Assembly: GCA_927798255.1 (NCBI GenBank)
Contig: CAKMMH010000004.1
Location: 1-23,275, forward strand
DNA: 23,275 bases
DNA from: an uncultured bacterium
Lineage (GTDB): Bacteria > Bdellovibrionota_C > UBA2361 > CAKMMH01
Direction: 5' to 3'
Translations under genes and position numbers: made by a program
Shown: positions 1,550 to 20,389 of the stretch, piece by piece
Numbering within the stretch: position 1 is the first letter of the stretch
Layout of the letters: every line of letters begins with the position of its first letter
The notes under the pieces: model-generated
What the model was told of the DNA's origin: nothing
Databases searched by the model: none
What the model saw: the letters and a program-made list of their open reading frames with translations, nothing else

Positions 1550-2383
1550 TTATTCTTTAATGTTAATTTTCTCAATAGTTATATTACTATCCTTACACAT
1601 CGCCTTTAGCTTGCTGCAAAGAGATTTGTTAAAATCATTTAAATAATTATTTGTTTGAATAATTTTTGCATATTTTGTTTTTTCAATAGATGATTTTAAT
1701 GTTTTATAATCGATAGGAGATATCACTCTTGTTTCTATAATTTCAGCATCAAGGAGTAATTCTTTAGCATAATCGCAGGATTCAAATATATCTTCACCAG
1801 TTGAAATTAATGTTATATCATTAGCTTCTTTTCTTATTTTTGCACTAATTTCGCTTAAAGGATCAGCTTCATTTTTATCGAGAGAAAAATTAGGTACTGG
1901 TCCTTGAACTTCATAAAGGTCAGGTGATATAAGAAAAAATGATGGAAAGTCTGATTCAATTGCATTGCTTAAAAATGAACAAAAATCATATGGGTTTGAA
2001 GGAAGAAATACATAGTGTTTAGAAGTATTATCTATTTTTGTCACATCTAATGATGCAAATTCATTATCAATTAAAATACATATATGTTTAAACGAAGGCT
2101 CATCTAGAGTTTTTGATAAATTTAAAATTTTTGAAATTATCTCATCATGTTTATTATTTGAATGAACAATGCTAAGTGTGCTTCTACCACTTATTGATGC
2201 CCCATTTGCAAAATCAATTATTTCTAAAGATGGATTATCTTTTAGTGTAACTTTGCCTTTATATTTTCTTACAAGGCCTAAGCTTTCTTTAGAATCATCA
2301 ATACATACAAGTAATCCTTTAGCTTTAGTAGCTTTAAATTTTTCTAACGTATATGACAAACAATCTTGAAATTTAAGCAACAT
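1550..2383 (-). CDS. Degenerate 2-oxoacid dehydrogenase E1 beta-subunit homologue
   Basis: A 277-residue protein. Its second half follows E1-beta subunits (pyruvate or branched-chain 2-oxoacid dehydrogenases, transketolase C-terminal fold) well: 'FLPSNPYDFCSFLSNAI' matches the usual PxxPxDAxGLLxxAI block, then 'EANDITLISTGEDIFESC' and 'ETRVISPIDYKTLKSSIEKT' match the DVTIVxxG and xDLRTLxPLDxxxIxxSVxKT blocks. The N-terminal half, which normally has the GEDV-type catalytic glutamate that activates thiamine diphosphate, is eroded; the equivalent place reads 'VCIDDSKESLG'. The length is about 50 residues below the usual 325 or so. The gene overlaps the E1-alpha-like gene upstream by 11 bases, so the two are co-translated as in true E1 operons. 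No E2 or E3 gene is present. Homology is fairly sure; enzymatic activity is doubtful. Confidence 0.62.
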   Translation of the reverse strand: MLLKFQDCLSYTLEKFKATKAKGLLVCIDDSKESLGLVRKYKGKVTLKDNPSLEIIDFANGASISGRSTLSIVHSNNKHDEIISKILNLSKTLDEPSFKHICILIDNEFASLDVTKIDNTSKHYVFLPSNPYDFCSFLSNAIESDFPSFFLISPDLYEVQGPVPNFSLDKNEADPLSEISAKIRKEANDITLISTGEDIFESCDYAKELLLDAEIIETRVISPIDYKTLKSSIEKTKYAKIIQTNNYLNDFNKSLCSKLKAMCKDSNITIEKINIKE

Positions 2384-3179
2384 TTAAAAACTCTTTTAAA
2401 TCATCTGAAATGAAATAACTAAGCTCAGAATTTAACGATCCTTTTAATTCATTTAGAGGAAAATTTAAAGACTTAATTTTTGCTTCTAAAAATTCTAATG
2501 GATCATTAGAATTTATAGCATCACAAAAAATTACAGCTGGTGTTAAATATTCCTTTGCATTTCTAATAGCTTTATGAAATGTACTCCTAAGAGAAAATAT
2601 GTCATCAGTGCTTGTTTCAACCCTCAAAACTTTATCATAGTGACTATCAAGAATATTGTTTAATACCGTCATATCATTTGTAGTTGTTTGTTCGATAATG
2701 TATACACAAGGAAGTGAATTTGTAATTGAAAAAACCACAGATTCTAAAAATTGACTTAAAAATACATGCTTACTATCTAGTGTTACTAAAAATGCAGGCA
2801 AAAAACCAGTTTCTTTAAATGATGACGCCATACCTTGCATTACGCTAAAAACTCTTTCAGGTTCATCGTTAAAAGAAAAAGTTCTAAGTGTATTATTAAT
2901 AATACTTTCACCGGTTTTTAATATTTTAAAATATTCTTTTATTCCTCGTTCTATTTTGTTATGTTTTAAAATAAAATAAGGATGAATTCTATCTGTTGAG
3001 AATAAATAATCACTTTGACTAGAGACAGAAGTAAGGGATACTGCAAGAGCTTCTAATTTATAATAAGAAGTTGGAAGTTTTTTGATATTTCCATTAAGAA
3101 AGCTCTTTAAAATAAGTTTTTCAAACTCTCTTAAGTAAAATATTTTTGAATATAATTCAAATAAAACTTCTTTATCCAT
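2373..3179 (-). CDS. Degenerate 2-oxoacid dehydrogenase E1 alpha-subunit homologue
   Basis: A 268-residue protein with the E1-alpha order of motifs: N-terminal 'LYSKIFYLREFEKLI' (as in the usual MxxxRxFEExL helix), 'DYLFSTDRIHPYFILK' (as in DxxFxxYRxHxxxLA), and 'QGMASSFKETGFLPAFLVTLDS' (as in GxAxAxKxxGxxxxVxxxxGDG). In true E1-alpha the GDG-x(about 26)-NN motif binds Mg and thiamine diphosphate. Here GDG reads LDS (residues 134-136) and the NN site reads 'EQTT' (about 163-166), so the cofactor site looks lost apart from one Asp. The protein is also about 60-90 residues shorter than typical E1-alpha. It is the first gene of a two-gene unit. It may be a structural or regulatory pseudoenzyme; no substrate can be proposed. 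Confidence 0.6.
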   Translation of the reverse strand: MDKEVLFELYSKIFYLREFEKLILKSFLNGNIKKLPTSYYKLEALAVSLTSVSSQSDYLFSTDRIHPYFILKHNKIERGIKEYFKILKTGESIINNTLRTFSFNDEPERVFSVMQGMASSFKETGFLPAFLVTLDSKHVFLSQFLESVVFSITNSLPCVYIIEQTTTNDMTVLNNILDSHYDKVLRVETSTDDIFSLRSTFHKAIRNAKEYLTPAVIFCDAINSNDPLEFLEAKIKSLNFPLNELKGSLNSELSYFISDDLKEFLNVA

Positions 3180-5750: not shown

Positions 5751-6236
5751 TTAGTCATTAATTTTTATGTATTCAATTTTTAGAATTTCATATTCAACAA
5801 TGCCTTTTGGAGTATGAACTTCTACAAAGTCTCCTTCTTTTTTTCTAAATAATGCGTTAGCAATAGGGGATTTGTAACTTATAAGACCTTTTTCAACGTT
5901 AATTTCATCTTCACCAACTATTGATTATCGTTTCTCCTCATCATGTTCATTTCAGAGTATTACGGTCGCCCCGAAGCGAATATCACTAGCATTTACATTT
6001 TCAGGGTCAATAATTTCTGTATTATCAAGTCTCTTACTTAAAAAGTGAAGCCTTGAATCAATTTGTCTAAGCCTTTTTTTACCATAAATATAATCTCCGT
6101 TTTCAGATCTATCGCCATTTCCAGCTGCCCAAGAGACTAATTCCACAACTTTTGGCCTTTCCTCATGTTGGAGTGTCTCGATTTCCTTAACTAGCTTATT
6201 ATAGCAATTCCGTGTCATATATACTTTTTCATTCAT
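5751..6236 (-). pseudogene. greB: greB-like transcript cleavage factor interrupted by two in-frame stops
   Basis: Gre factors enter the RNA polymerase secondary channel and stimulate cleavage of backtracked RNA. Read in one frame from the ATG at 6236 (AAGG-type ribosome-binding site upstream), the 162 codons give a full GreB. The N-terminal coiled coil has the tip motif 'GNGDRSENGDYIYGKKRLRQ', then 'IRFGATVIL', a linker, and the C-terminal domain 'SIVGEDEINVEKG', 'ISYKSPIANALF', 'GDFVEVHTPKG' to a natural stop at 5751. Codon 95 is TGA (5954-5952), where GreB usually has Glu, and codon 104 is TAA (5927-5925), where an aromatic residue is usual. Between them 'NEHDEEKR' stays perfectly GreB-like. 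No frameshift is needed. The longest uninterrupted product is the 94-residue coiled-coil half. Both stops fall in the interdomain linker. The domain homology is clear; whether it is a true recent pseudogene, a sequence error or a read-through gene is undecided. Confidence 0.82.
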
Positions 6237-6354: not shown

Positions 6355-6381
6355 TAAAGTTTAAGTAGTTAGTGTCGATAA
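6355..6381 (+). promoter_or_regulatory. Sigma-28 (FliA) class flagellar promoter
   Basis: TAAAGTTT (6355-6362), an 11-base spacer, then GTCGATAA (6374-6381). The enterobacterial FliA consensus is TAAAGTTT-N11-GCCGATAA, so the -35 is exact, the spacing is exact and the -10 differs at one base. Transcription would start near 6388, giving a short leader with AGGAG at 6393-6397 before the ATG at 6408. This places the downstream gene in the late flagellar regulon. Confidence 0.88.
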
Positions 6382-6407: not shown

Positions 6408-8318
6408 ATGACAATAGGACGTGTCAGTTTATCAAAAGTTATAAATAAAGATTTTGTAACAACCATTCAAAAGATGTCTGTAAAATCCACGTCTGCAACT
6501 TCATCAGCTAGTTCATCGACAGATTGGAGCTCAACTTTACAAAGTGGGGCTAGAATTTATGCAAATTCTGTTTCTTCATTAAATTCGCTTATAAGTTATT
6601 TAAATGTTTCAAAAGATACACTAAATGGATTATTAGATTTAACTGATGGAATGCTCGAGCTTGCGCAAAGAGCAAAGAAAACATCTCTTGGTGCTCAATC
6701 AAGAAGAAAATTAGATTTTAAATATAAAGATTTAGTTAATGATTTTAAAGCAATAATTGATAAAGCAAGTAAATCAGAAAGAAATTTTTTAACTAAAGAT
6801 GGATTAAGTAAATTATTTTCTATTATAGGTCTTAATACTCAAACTAGCTCAACTATAGCAGAAGTATTTAATGAATTTTTATTTGAAGGTGATGATAAAA
6901 TATTAGCAAGTAAGGATATAAAACCAACGAAACAACCTATTATTCCAAGAAAAGTATATGGAAACGTTGTTACTTCAGAAACTTCAAGTTACATGACAAA
7001 AAAAGTAACAAACAATGAAGAACTAATGATCTCTGGTTTAACTGGTTCAGTATCAAGTTTATCAAGTGTTACTAATGAAGTTCAAAATGGTAATAAAGTC
7101 GTATCATATATAAATAATGTTACTGGTGAAAAAATTACACGAGGAAATGATGGCTATCAGTACGTATTAAAAGATGTTGATGCAGCTACTGGATTTTCTG
7201 TTGTTAGTAAATATGAAGGTGACCCCGATTTTGCTACTTTATTTTTAACTGATAATAGAGGAGATATTATAAAACAATTAACCATAGAAGAACTTAATTA
7301 TACAGATGTAAAAATTTCAAAAGACTTTAAAACATTAGTCGCAGCAAGTCTATCAGAAGATCACGTAGAAAAAATTCAAAAAATAACTTTTAATGATAAT
7401 GATGATAGTTCTCTTGTTCAAGAAATTGCAAGAAAAGATGAATTTGATCATGTGAGCTTCTCAAATATTCAAATAAGTCGTGATGGAAGCTATATTGCAT
7501 ATAGAGATAGTGAAGAAAATCAAAATTATTTTTTAAATAGTGAAAATCTTAGCGTTGACTCAAGTTTTTTAGCTAATAGTGATATTACAAAATTTGGTTT
7601 TATAGATAATAATAAATTAGCTGTATACGACGGAAATAATATTTCTACATATGAATATAATTCAAATTCATTTAATACATTAATTGAAAATGTAAATATT
7701 GATAAATTTGTTACTATGAACGAACCTTATAATAATTTATCATACATAGCATATTCAAGTATGAATGATTATAGTGTAAATGTAATAAATACAAATGGAG
7801 TACTTATAACATCTAATCAAGGAGACGAAGGAAACGATATAGTAAATCTTTCATTAGCATATAATAAATCACATGTAATCGAACTTGGTATCTTTGGAAA
7901 ATTCAATGGCGCAACTTCAGAAAATGAACTTTATAGGGTAAATGGTGAAAATTCAACTAAACAAGCAAGCTCATCAGCAGCGTTAACAAAAGTATTTGAT
8001 AGTAGTTTAAATTTAAAAACTGCAGTTGGAGCTTATAGAGTTGAAAATGCACTTAAAGCGTTAAAAGAACAAATTCAAACCAATATTAGTACAATGGATA
8101 AAATGTATGATGTAATTGGTGAGAATTTGGACTTAGTTAGAGCGACAGGATACGCACTTTTAGATTTATCACAAGAATCTTTAACTTCATTAGAAGCAGA
8201 TGATATAGCTAAAAAGTTAAGGCATGAAATTACGAAAAACGCTTCTAAGGCATTAGCACAAGCAGAAAACTTAGAACCACTTGCAATCGCTGCTATGATG
8301 TTAAATGATGAGATATAA
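6408..8318 (+). CDS. Flagellin-like protein with beta-propeller-like central domain
   Basis: A 636-residue protein. The region about 50-130 ('LNVSKDTLNGLLDLTDGM', 'LELAQRAKKTSLGAQSRR', 'FKAIIDKASKSERNFL') resembles the N-terminal D1 helices of flagellin or FlgL. The last 115 residues ('YRVENALKALKEQIQTNIST', 'LVRATGYALLDLSQESL', 'ASKALAQAENLEPLAIAAMM') resemble the C-terminal D1/D0 coiled coil that packs the filament core. The extreme N-terminus lacks the classical 'IN(T)N..A' D0 start. Between the two, about residues 245-515, lie roughly six blade-like units with TolB/WD40-type strands such as 'ISKDFKTLVAAS', 'ISRDGSYIAYRD', 'DNNKLAVYDGN' and 'NLSYIAYSS'. That domain is where flagellins carry their variable surface domain. 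A sigma-28 promoter and AGGAG site precede the gene. It is probably a filament or hook-filament-junction protein displaying a propeller on the surface. Flagellin kinship is inferred from pattern and promoter. Confidence 0.72.
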   Translation: MTIGRVSLSKVINKDFVTTIQKMSVKSTSATSSASSSTDWSSTLQSGARIYANSVSSLNSLISYLNVSKDTLNGLLDLTDGMLELAQRAKKTSLGAQSRRKLDFKYKDLVNDFKAIIDKASKSERNFLTKDGLSKLFSIIGLNTQTSSTIAEVFNEFLFEGDDKILASKDIKPTKQPIIPRKVYGNVVTSETSSYMTKKVTNNEELMISGLTGSVSSLSSVTNEVQNGNKVVSYINNVTGEKITRGNDGYQYVLKDVDAATGFSVVSKYEGDPDFATLFLTDNRGDIIKQLTIEELNYTDVKISKDFKTLVAASLSEDHVEKIQKITFNDNDDSSLVQEIARKDEFDHVSFSNIQISRDGSYIAYRDSEENQNYFLNSENLSVDSSFLANSDITKFGFIDNNKLAVYDGNNISTYEYNSNSFNTLIENVNIDKFVTMNEPYNNLSYIAYSSMNDYSVNVINTNGVLITSNQGDEGNDIVNLSLAYNKSHVIELGIFGKFNGATSENELYRVNGENSTKQASSSAALTKVFDSSLNLKTAVGAYRVENALKALKEQIQTNISTMDKMYDVIGENLDLVRATGYALLDLSQESLTSLEADDIAKKLRHEITKNASKALAQAENLEPLAIAAMMLNDEI

Positions 8319-8416: not shown

Positions 8417-8665
8417 GTGAATTCAGGTAAAGACAAAAAAGATGCCAATTTAAAAATAGATGAGCAAGTAGTAACAAAGCCAATATGTGATTTACTTTCC
8501 AACATTGATGTCGAGTGGCGTTCAGTTATAACTCTAAGATATGGTCTAAATGGCGAGCCACCAAAATCACCTAGTGAAGTTGCAGAAATATTAGGAACTA
8601 CTGTAGAAGCAATAAACTCTCTAGAAGTTAATGCCTTAAGATATTTTTATACTAAGAAAAGCTAA
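8417..8665 (+). CDS. Standalone sigma-70 region 4-like DNA-binding protein
   Basis: An 82-residue protein whose residues about 24-78 match region 4 of primary sigma factors: 'VITLRYGLNGEPPKSPSEVA' parallels the usual 'VLxLRYGLxGxxPxTLEEVG', followed by the recognition-helix segment 'EILGTTVEAINSLEVNALRY'. Regions 2 and 3 are absent. The usual 'SRERVRQIE' of the recognition helix is replaced by 'TVEAINSLE', so -35 contacts may be lost. The start is taken as GTG 8417; no ATG is available in frame and no clear ribosome-binding site is seen. A 4-codon frame, ATG at 8406 closed by TGA, overlaps the GTG and could couple translation. It could be a transcriptional modulator, anti-sigma-like decoy or sigma remnant. 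It lies 98 bases after the flagellin-like gene, on the same strand. Confidence 0.6.
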   Translation: MNSGKDKKDANLKIDEQVVTKPICDLLSNIDVEWRSVITLRYGLNGEPPKSPSEVAEILGTTVEAINSLEVNALRYFYTKKS

Positions 8666-18061: not shown

Positions 18062-20389
18062 CTATCCCTCTTTTCTCTTCTTTTCTTCTTCCTTCTTAAT
18101 TCTTGAATAATCAAGATAGTATAGGTTTGCTTGGATATTGTCAGTATTAGAGTAAATGTAAGTTAAGAAAAACTCTGTAATTGTAGCATTTCTTATCGCA
18201 AGCTCTTCACAAAGTCTTAAAATTAATTGAGGTCTATTAGAGTTTTCTTGCTCAAAAGTTTCCCACCATTTTTTAGCACTTCCTGATGTATTTTCCCAAT
18301 CAAGTTTTTTTCTTGTTTCGGTTATTTTGTTTTGTATTTGTTCATCTGACCAACCCGTCGTATCAGAAATTCCTTCAGGAATACCATTTGAACCTTCTCC
18401 TTGATTTGTTGATTTTACTGGTTCAGGGTCTTTTTCTATATATTCAATTGGAACATCTCTTAATTTTACAACTGTTGATAAAGAATCATTAATTTTCTTT
18501 GACATTTCAGGTATCTTATACCAAGGTGTTAAATATCCTTGGAATACAGGAGTATTTGGAACAAAGAATGTGTTTATGTTATCTGTTGGTCTACCAATTT
18601 CATCTGGAGTTAGTACAGCTCTTTGTTGCACTTGTTCTTGGATGTTGTCACTTTTACTTGCAAACATTTCAGTAATTTTCTGGTTAGAGCCAAGAGACGA
18701 AGTGTTAAATCTAATTGTCATTTGCCCCGTTTCTTTTGATGCCCATTCAGCGTCAACCATATCAAGAGGTGGCATGAAGATTTTTGATGTAAAACCTGCT
18801 AGTACAGAATCTGCATCATCTCCATAATTTGCCTTTACTTGAGCTGTAGATTGAATAGCGGCAACGATACTAATATTTCTTGAACGCAATGTATTTAATT
18901 TCACGTGAATATCAGGAAGTCTTCCTAGAGCACTTGCAAACTCGTCTATTACTAATCCTACAGGTCTTGGTAATGTAACTTTTGGACATTTTTCAGCATA
19001 TTTTGTTAAGAATCTTAAGATTTCTACTATGATTACATTAGCCATAGGACGAAGCATCTCAAGTTCTGATTCTCTTAATTCTACAATAAGAATAGTTGGC
19101 TCTAAAATTAATTGCTCTAGGTCTAATTCATCAAATGCCGTAGTAGCGCGAATTGCTTTTAAGTCCCATTGAGATATACGCATACTTAACTCTGAAAGAA
19201 TAGTATCTGCGTTTTGAGAACCACTTCTCACAAGATCTACAAAAGCTCTTGTGTTTCTTATTGCGTCTGGGTGTGCTTCTAGCCAGCTACAAAGTCCTTC
19301 TCTACCCGATTGCACTAGTTCATGTACTCTTGGCATCGAAAGAGTTTCATTAGGATCATTTAAAAGACCAACCATAAGAGCATTTAAAACAGCAAGTGCG
19401 TTATTTCTAAAGAAAGGGCTATCTGCTTTTGAGCTTGGATTATCTGTTGCCATAATAATTGTATTTGCAATTAATTTAGCATCTGTATCATCTTCAATTT
19501 TACTTAGGATATTCCAGCTTAAACTTCTTTCAAGATCTAATGGGTTAAATAAAAGGATTTTTTTACTAGGGTTATATTTTTTTACAAGGCCTGCAAGTTG
19601 TGCCCACATTTCAGGTTTTGAGTCTAGGATAATTACAGATCTATTTTTACTCATTACATCATTGTACAATATTGGCGTAATAAGTTTCGTAGTTTTACCA
19701 CCACCTGTTTTTGATACTGCTAAGATATGTCTATTTCTATCCCCATTTGCCCAAATAAGATGTCCTTCTTTTAAAATTACGCCATCGCTACCTCTTAAAT
19801 TTGTAACAGGAAGGGCTGTATCTGTTTCAGGATCTTTTGGCCTAGTCCACTCTAGAATTTGCGCTCTATTTGCAAGGTCACCAGAACCAAGTTCGTTACT
19901 TTTTGAACGCATTGGCCTAATTAAAACTTTTTCTCCAAGAAGCTCATTTGTGTCAATTTTTAAAGCTTCTTTTAGGCCACCTTCTTTCATTGCGTTTTTT
20001 AAGAAATAAAGTAGCCAACCTAGATATGTATAAAAGCCAAATGCTATAATTTCCTCTATAACGACACGTTTTTCTTTAGCTCCAACTAGTATATAAAATA
20101 TTGGTTCAAAAATAGATGCTGATGAAGTTTTGCTTGTACCGTTTTCAATACGGTCTAAAATATTTGCAATTTTATCGGATAATTCTTGACTATTAAATGC
20201 AAGCTCTAAACATATTCCAAGAAGAATAAATCCTATAATCCATGGAAATTTATTTGCTAATTTTGCTCTTTTAAATTGAATAATTATACATGCTATTGCA
20301 AATGGTAAGATTAGAAATGCTCCAATTAACCCTAAGTTAACGTAGTAATTGATAAGTTTTAAAACTAGACTTTCAATAAGTAAAAACAT
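18062..20389 (-). CDS. VirD4/TraG-type type IV coupling ATPase
   Basis: A 775-residue inner-membrane ATPase of the type IV secretion coupling-protein family. Three hydrophobic segments (about 16-38, 49-66 and 112-131) form the anchor. The motor has Walker A 'SKTGGGKTT' (226-234), a following 'VIILDSKPEMW' (as in the usual LDPKGE motif), and Walker B 'GLVIDEFASALGRLPDI' (478-494). 'AAIQSTAQVKANYG' is the sensor-like block found in TraG/TraD. An acidic and basic charged C-terminal tail follows. In conjugation systems such proteins dock DNA-relaxase complexes or effectors to the channel. No relaxase, VirB ATPase or channel gene is in the window, so it is an orphan here; the rest may lie elsewhere. 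It has a weak ribosome-binding site. Its GC content is like its neighbours', with no sign of recent transfer. Confidence 0.86.
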   Translation of the reverse strand: MFLLIESLVLKLINYYVNLGLIGAFLILPFAIACIIIQFKRAKLANKFPWIIGFILLGICLELAFNSQELSDKIANILDRIENGTSKTSSASIFEPIFYILVGAKEKRVVIEEIIAFGFYTYLGWLLYFLKNAMKEGGLKEALKIDTNELLGEKVLIRPMRSKSNELGSGDLANRAQILEWTRPKDPETDTALPVTNLRGSDGVILKEGHLIWANGDRNRHILAVSKTGGGKTTKLITPILYNDVMSKNRSVIILDSKPEMWAQLAGLVKKYNPSKKILLFNPLDLERSLSWNILSKIEDDTDAKLIANTIIMATDNPSSKADSPFFRNNALAVLNALMVGLLNDPNETLSMPRVHELVQSGREGLCSWLEAHPDAIRNTRAFVDLVRSGSQNADTILSELSMRISQWDLKAIRATTAFDELDLEQLILEPTILIVELRESELEMLRPMANVIIVEILRFLTKYAEKCPKVTLPRPVGLVIDEFASALGRLPDIHVKLNTLRSRNISIVAAIQSTAQVKANYGDDADSVLAGFTSKIFMPPLDMVDAEWASKETGQMTIRFNTSSLGSNQKITEMFASKSDNIQEQVQQRAVLTPDEIGRPTDNINTFFVPNTPVFQGYLTPWYKIPEMSKKINDSLSTVVKLRDVPIEYIEKDPEPVKSTNQGEGSNGIPEGISDTTGWSDEQIQNKITETRKKLDWENTSGSAKKWWETFEQENSNRPQLILRLCEELAIRNATITEFFLTYIYSNTDNIQANLYYLDYSRIKKEEEKKRKEG

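Follow-up and report, generated by a model that had tools for sequence, protein, structure and literature searches.

A beta-propeller enclosed by flagellin-type ends is encoded at 6408..8318 (forward strand) of a 23,275-nucleotide stretch of DNA, termed here the window, from an uncultured bacterium (GTDB lineage Bacteria; Bdellovibrionota_C; UBA2361; CAKMMH01; contig CAKMMH010000004.1 of assembly GCA_927798255.1). This architecture of the 636-residue protein is well supported: the flagellin homology of its ends, the propeller fold between them and a sigma-28 promoter ahead of the gene are each shown or strongly supported. The best reading, to which a probability of roughly 0.6 is assigned, is that the protein is a late flagellar subunit displaying a binding propeller, that is, a divergent flagellin paralogue on the filament. 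Nor is it an isolated case: most members of its family are insert-free and others carry a propeller of the FG-GAP type.

According to this reading, the protein would be made late under sigma-28, as would the product of the filament cap gene fliD, and would be exported via the flagellar type III apparatus; it would then join the filament as a minor or regional subunit, its D0/D1-like ends packing within the filament or on its outside, while its propeller of six or seven blades would face outward in the D2/D3 position and bind an outside ligand, which may be a surface, a glycan or another cell. Ligand binding is common among propellers of such types.

A propeller between flagellin-type ends

In the predicted structure, a propeller of four-stranded blades lies between paired end helices of the flagellin D1 fold. 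The N-terminal chassis begins with a D0-like helical part (residues 1-28, 6408..6491; helices 8-11 and 14-27), after which a serine-rich linker of low confidence (residues 29-39, 6492..6524), at the position of the RLSSGxRINxAxDDAAG segment in flagellins, leads to the D1-like helices 40-89 and 96-122 (6525..6773), which are homologous to Flagellin_N; a family-specific segment (residues 123-187, 6774..6968), with short helices 130-139 and 148-155 and a LASxxI stretch, closes this part of the chassis. The insert (residues 193-516, 6984..7955) is TolB/WD40-like; six of its blades are predicted with confidence and a seventh is probable. The C-terminal chassis (residues 527-636, 7986..8315) consists of D1/D0-like helices 539-589 and 597-631 and a ALAQAENLEPLAIAAM end. 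An initial annotation of this DNA had proposed that the two ends are flagellin-type helices and that the D2/D3 position between them holds a propeller; both proposals are borne out, the homology being detectable in the N-terminal part and weaker in the C-terminal part. Structure prediction, which had been suggested as a check, places the propeller between the end helices as expected and leaves the closure of the ring insecure.

Similarity of the insert to WD40, TolB and S9-type propellers is confined to the fold (TolB ranks 16th among the insert's Foldseek matches; its absence from the 50 VIA rows excludes nothing). An FG-GAP identity for this insert was rejected: neither PF13517 nor PF01839 repeats are found in the protein at E ≤ 10, and the insert profile matches no FG-GAP flagellins among the 483 open reading frames (ORFs) of the fetched loci (E ≤ 1). 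No peptidase family matches the protein at E ≤ 10 in Pfam or NCBIfam, the M9-type metallopeptidase of flagellinolysins included, and the protein as a single query finds no relatives among genome and viral contigs.

Structure comparison of the bare-chassis model gives flagellins in all of the best 50 rows (50/50); with Foldseek, designed and other helical proteins appear from rank 36 onward, and a search of the PDB with the chassis profile also draws, among the flagellins, repeat proteins of designed origin (dTor; E values of 1e-5 and 1e-4). Flagellin_N is matched by 10 of 17 family rows at E ≤ 0.05, with L042, L047 and L052 above the Pfam cut-off (L numbers denote fetched loci, G numbers genomes and C numbers contigs, G000 being the source genome); the 636-residue protein alone has no Pfam Flagellin_N match at E ≤ 10. 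Profile-profile comparison yields a 99.1% match of the N-terminal part to Flagellin_N and an 89% match (E 2e-6) of the C-terminal part to Flagellin_C, which no Pfam match joins to any of the 17 rows. In a gene tree that includes six flagellins, the family separates from them as a clade of its own (support 100/100), and the motif [RK]I[NS]x[AG]xDD, found in 32/32 long flagellins, occurs in 0/24 family rows, its place being occupied by the serine-rich, low-confidence linker. Because both the homology and the D1 fold are evident but this motif is absent from all 24 rows, the family is named here a flagellin paralogue rather than a flagellin; it is no standard flagellin.

An insertion point with and without propellers

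Of the order's 28 genomes, 26 contain the family among the matches listed for a 10-row profile (A1), G009 and G010 being the two without a member. An intact plain chassis of 301-313 residues, with no insert, is found in 20 of the 28, and in G013 a plain member is split across two contigs; ten long members occur in nine genomes, four of which hold plain and long forms together. Plain members align with a gap at residues ~190-515 of the window's protein, and such alignments strongly support the view that the propellers sit at one fixed insertion point of a chassis that also exists insert-free. Beyond the order, 17 further genomes represent the class, and some distant members seem to be present among them (e.g., in G043, G040 and G029). 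Outside the class, no family member was found in 51 genomes of 51 families; eight of these give matches, none stronger than 45 bits and all confined to model positions 24-148, which is what flagellins produce.

Inserts of the window's TolB/WD40-like type occur in eight genomes, and the insert profile matches eight distinct proteins: one copy each in the window's protein, L040, L041 and L042; two each in L043, L047 and L053 (L053 being truncated where its contig ends); and three in L044, of which the first is likewise truncated by a contig end and the third has FG-GAP repeats between its two halves (residues ~706-1054). Two members in G007 (L046 and L072) carry FG-GAP propellers in place of the TolB/WD40-like ones. 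When the window's protein is compared with three relatives, identity is 23-25% in the insert versus 30-43% in the chassis. The gene tree does not fix the number of insert gains and losses: the best tree has five changes, and starred branches force just one.

Two of these loci show further features. In L044 (3165-7325, residues ~590-1260) the FG-GAP propeller is apparently nested within one copy of the TolB-like module, and in L041 (2335-7332, G008:C35) a 1,665-residue FG-GAP protein begins beside the propeller-bearing family gene, on the opposite strand.

That the protein might belong either to the filament or to a junction had also been proposed initially. Such a junction or cap-proximal FlgL-like protein, whose propeller would be a structural spacer, would agree with the wide occurrence of intact plain copies in the order and with their length, which is about that of the FlgL-like protein of the source genome (333 residues, named by its place); but the latter is a separate protein that adjoins FlgK at G000:C64, away from the propeller gene, and the family N profile gives it 6.9 bits (E 0.002 in a set of 8 sequences) versus 40.1-67.1 bits for the genome's three flagellins, the best of which is one with an FG-GAP insert. 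The family is neither closer to FlgL than to flagellin nor located beside flgK, and this explanation is very unlikely. Profile comparison of the ends, likewise suggested at the outset, sides with flagellin for the N-terminal part and not with FlgL, the C-terminal homology being weak.

A candidate identification of the ~310-residue relatives as FlgL with FlgK beside it was rejected, since the ~920-940-residue neighbour is 2-oxoglutarate dehydrogenase E1 and FlgK lies elsewhere. The E1 gene is adjacent or one gene off in 5 of the 15 loci with at least one neighbour scanned (plain L045 and L050; long L040, L043 and L047), the window's locus not being among them.

Promoter, genomic setting and the weight of the reading

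The promoter initially proposed is of the sigma-28 (FliA) type, TAAAGTTT-N11-GTCGATAA, and lies at 6355..6381 on the forward strand, 26 nucleotides before the ATG. It agrees with 15 of the 16 positions of the FliA consensus (that of E. coli), a score equalled in 0 of 200 shuffles. In the 1.77 Mb source genome (88.6% complete) only one other site has at most one mismatch, and this site stands 49 nucleotides ahead of the gene with FliD_N and FliD_C domains; a FliA gene is also present (257 bits). Because the site is near-perfect, because the other such site belongs to fliD and because the genome has FliA, the propeller gene is very probably transcribed together with late flagellar genes. When up to three mismatches are allowed, 80 sites are found genome-wide versus 52 with the reversed pattern, most of them being noise. 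In a scan of 17 genes with the same consensus, the standouts are the window's gene (0 of 200 shuffles), L042 (3), L040 (4) and the flagellin L038 (2); the other 13 have no standout site against 200 shuffles.

Several observations weigh against a filament subunit that displays a binding propeller. Conservation of the promoter in relatives, which had been expected, is partial: its core, T[ACT][AC]AG-N-CGAT[AT], a pattern picked after the first promoter scan had been seen, occurs in 5 of 28 unique upstream regions of the family, the window's own included (one of the 28 being just 14 nucleotides long), with a spacing of 16 in four, among them the window's, and of 17 in one; at spacings of 10-15 the counts are 1, 0, 0, 0, 0 and 0, and at 18-22 they are 0, 0, 0, 1 and 0. 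The same plan recurs in relatives, a survey for which had been suggested; no recognised flagellar gene adjoins the gene in the window, where the neighbours are greB-like and HGPRT-like genes and a sigma-region-4 ORF. C-terminal homology is weak, the family C profile scoring at best 6.7 bits, to the genome's own flagellin L036, and the absence of [RK]I[NS]x[AG]xDD makes polymerisation as in a normal filament doubtful. The 636-residue protein alone obtains no useful Pfam or NCBIfam score (at E ≤ 10, Syntaxin_2 only in Pfam and none in NCBIfam), and its sequence matches no PDB chain at E ≤ 1. The predicted template modelling score of the whole model is just 0.50, and the predicted local distance difference test (pLDDT) falls below 50 at the joints (residues 185-197 and 514-526) and is 56-70 in the first strands (211-250), so that both ring closure and the geometry of chassis and propeller are insecure.

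Among the structural matches of the bare-chassis model are PDB 2zbi, 3k8v and 3k8w, which we take to be the cell-surface flagellin of Sphingomonas sp. A1. This protein reportedly serves as an alginate receptor at the outer surface; it is not known to have a propeller. By analogy, the window's protein could be a cell-surface flagellin homologue located outside the filament, with its propeller as a receptor, an explanation that is the strongest rival and is nonetheless judged unlikely. The flagellin paralogue on the filament is retained as the preferred reading.

Other features of the window and of the source genome may be noted. The GreB-like ORF (5952-6236) is only 94 residues long and apparently lacks the C-terminal domain, because its match covers profile positions 2-91 of 156. 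Immediately downstream of the flagellin-like gene, at 8417-8665, is a stand-alone sigma-70 region 4-like ORF of 82 residues. An adjacent pair of intact ORFs at 1550-3179 weakly resembles the alpha (27 bits) and beta (36 bits) chains of pyruvate dehydrogenase E1, far below cut-off, and is possibly a divergent or decayed form of that enzyme. At 18062-20389 lies a VirD4-like conjugal coupling protein of 775 residues (CD1115 family, 189 bits, below the cut-off of 250). Four FlhA-type (PF00771) matches in the source genome (G000:C71, C31, C152 and C147), one full length and three partial, suggest either that the genome has multiple flagellar export gates or that contigs are split.

FG-GAP flagellins and comparison with known systems

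Propellers are also found on true flagellins. Among 32 long flagellins (415-655 residues) from stretches picked in 11 genomes of the order, both flagellin domains occur in all 32 and FG-GAP_3 repeats in 28 (left out of these counts are L094:6586, L095:8217 and L105:4158, which are cut by stretch or contig ends, and L037, L038 and two in L099, which are short). Exactly seven Dx[NDST]xDG motifs are present in 23 of the 27 flagellins of 608-655 residues, as a seven-bladed ring with one motif per blade would give, and five or six in the other four. One such true flagellin belongs to the source genome itself (L036:9093-11060, G000:C10; 655 residues; Flagellin_N 110 bits, Flagellin_C 51 bits); its FG-GAP middle has six of these motifs and is a second propeller on a flagellin in this genome, unrelated to the window's. 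In G003, FG-GAP flagellins stand several in tandem (L093-L096), L110 also being in this genome; comparison of 11 copies from G003 gives mean identities of 75.5% for the N part and 73.7% for the C part versus 34.4% for the propeller. Because third codon positions of the ends have a mean identity of just 40-41%, these copies are old and their ends held by selection. Because full-length matches to the profile of these flagellins (~600+ of 615 positions; frames of 618-635 residues) occur in G095, G089 and G067, at least three of the 51 genomes examined from other lineages, FG-GAP flagellins probably extend beyond this class.

Giant open frames with a flagellin-like N-terminal part were also observed: L048:1-10446 (G003:C14; 3,898 residues), L049:3-11960 (G034:C60; 4,585 residues) and L112:584-7117 (G012:C149; 2,183 residues), with 45, 55 and 15 FG-GAP_3 matches, respectively, in the stretch read.

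These giant relatives, together with those bearing one, two or three propeller modules, would suit an explanation in which the propeller is inert bulk that thickens the filament and alters its hydrodynamics or stiffness, as has been proposed for giant flagellins (PMC6248924). However, two unrelated propeller types are in use, and the divergence of the propellers relative to the ends in the 11 G003 copies, which are true flagellins and not members of the window's family, suits recognition better than bulk; thickening is regarded as improbable.

Because relatives bear different propellers or none, the display of binding modules via flagella is suggested. A broader proposal, advanced tentatively and at somewhat less than even odds, is that the flagella of this class are a display system for exchangeable beta-propellers, in which a paralogue lacking the spoke segment carries TolB/WD40-like or FG-GAP propellers at one fixed site, next to expanded sets of true flagellins whose FG-GAP propellers have a single calcium-type motif on each blade; together these would serve as a repertoire of receptors or adhesins on the filament. 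An insertion point that stays fixed while the number of propellers ranges from zero to three, with two unrelated types in use, makes a natural display platform, with which the purpose of flagellar outer domains becomes a testable question; and the absent conserved segment probes to what extent the D0-D1 spoke is required in a filament subunit.

With flagellin itself (FliC; PF00669/PF00700) the family shares D1-like helical pairs from both ends, a variable middle and probable sigma-28 control; unlike flagellin, it has a serine-rich linker instead of [RK]I[NS]x[AG]xDD and an extra helical segment before the insert, and forms a clade of its own. Integrin-alpha/VCBS-type FG-GAP propellers serve as inserts in L046, L072 and part of L044 and in 28 of the 32 long flagellins, but the window's own insert is not of this type. 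A propeller fold is also that of the Sialidase domain. In the middles of 26,587 flagellins, Eckhard et al. (2017; PMC5595980) count 61 types of domain; their top ten include Sialidase, with 10 cases, and neither FG-GAP nor WD40, either of which the full supplementary list may hold. Flagellinolysins and the other domain-inserted flagellins of that paper likewise have a foreign folded domain between flagellin halves, but in the window's protein this domain is a TolB/WD40-like propeller, a peptidase domain is absent, and the paralogue concerned is mostly insert-free. The giant flagellins of marine gamma-proteobacteria (PMC6248924) similarly have an enlarged middle, in which one module recurs in tandem, but their DE and DX regions are not known to be propellers; FG-GAP occurs 0 times in the main text of that paper and of a review (PMC8306008), where a propeller is mentioned as the role of the filament. 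Among the matches listed in a search of open PMC papers (titles and starts of abstracts), no propeller flagellin, WD40/TolB-like or FG-GAP, was found. Domain insertion in a flagellin-like protein is of a known kind; the breadth of interchangeable propellers around this one is unusual.
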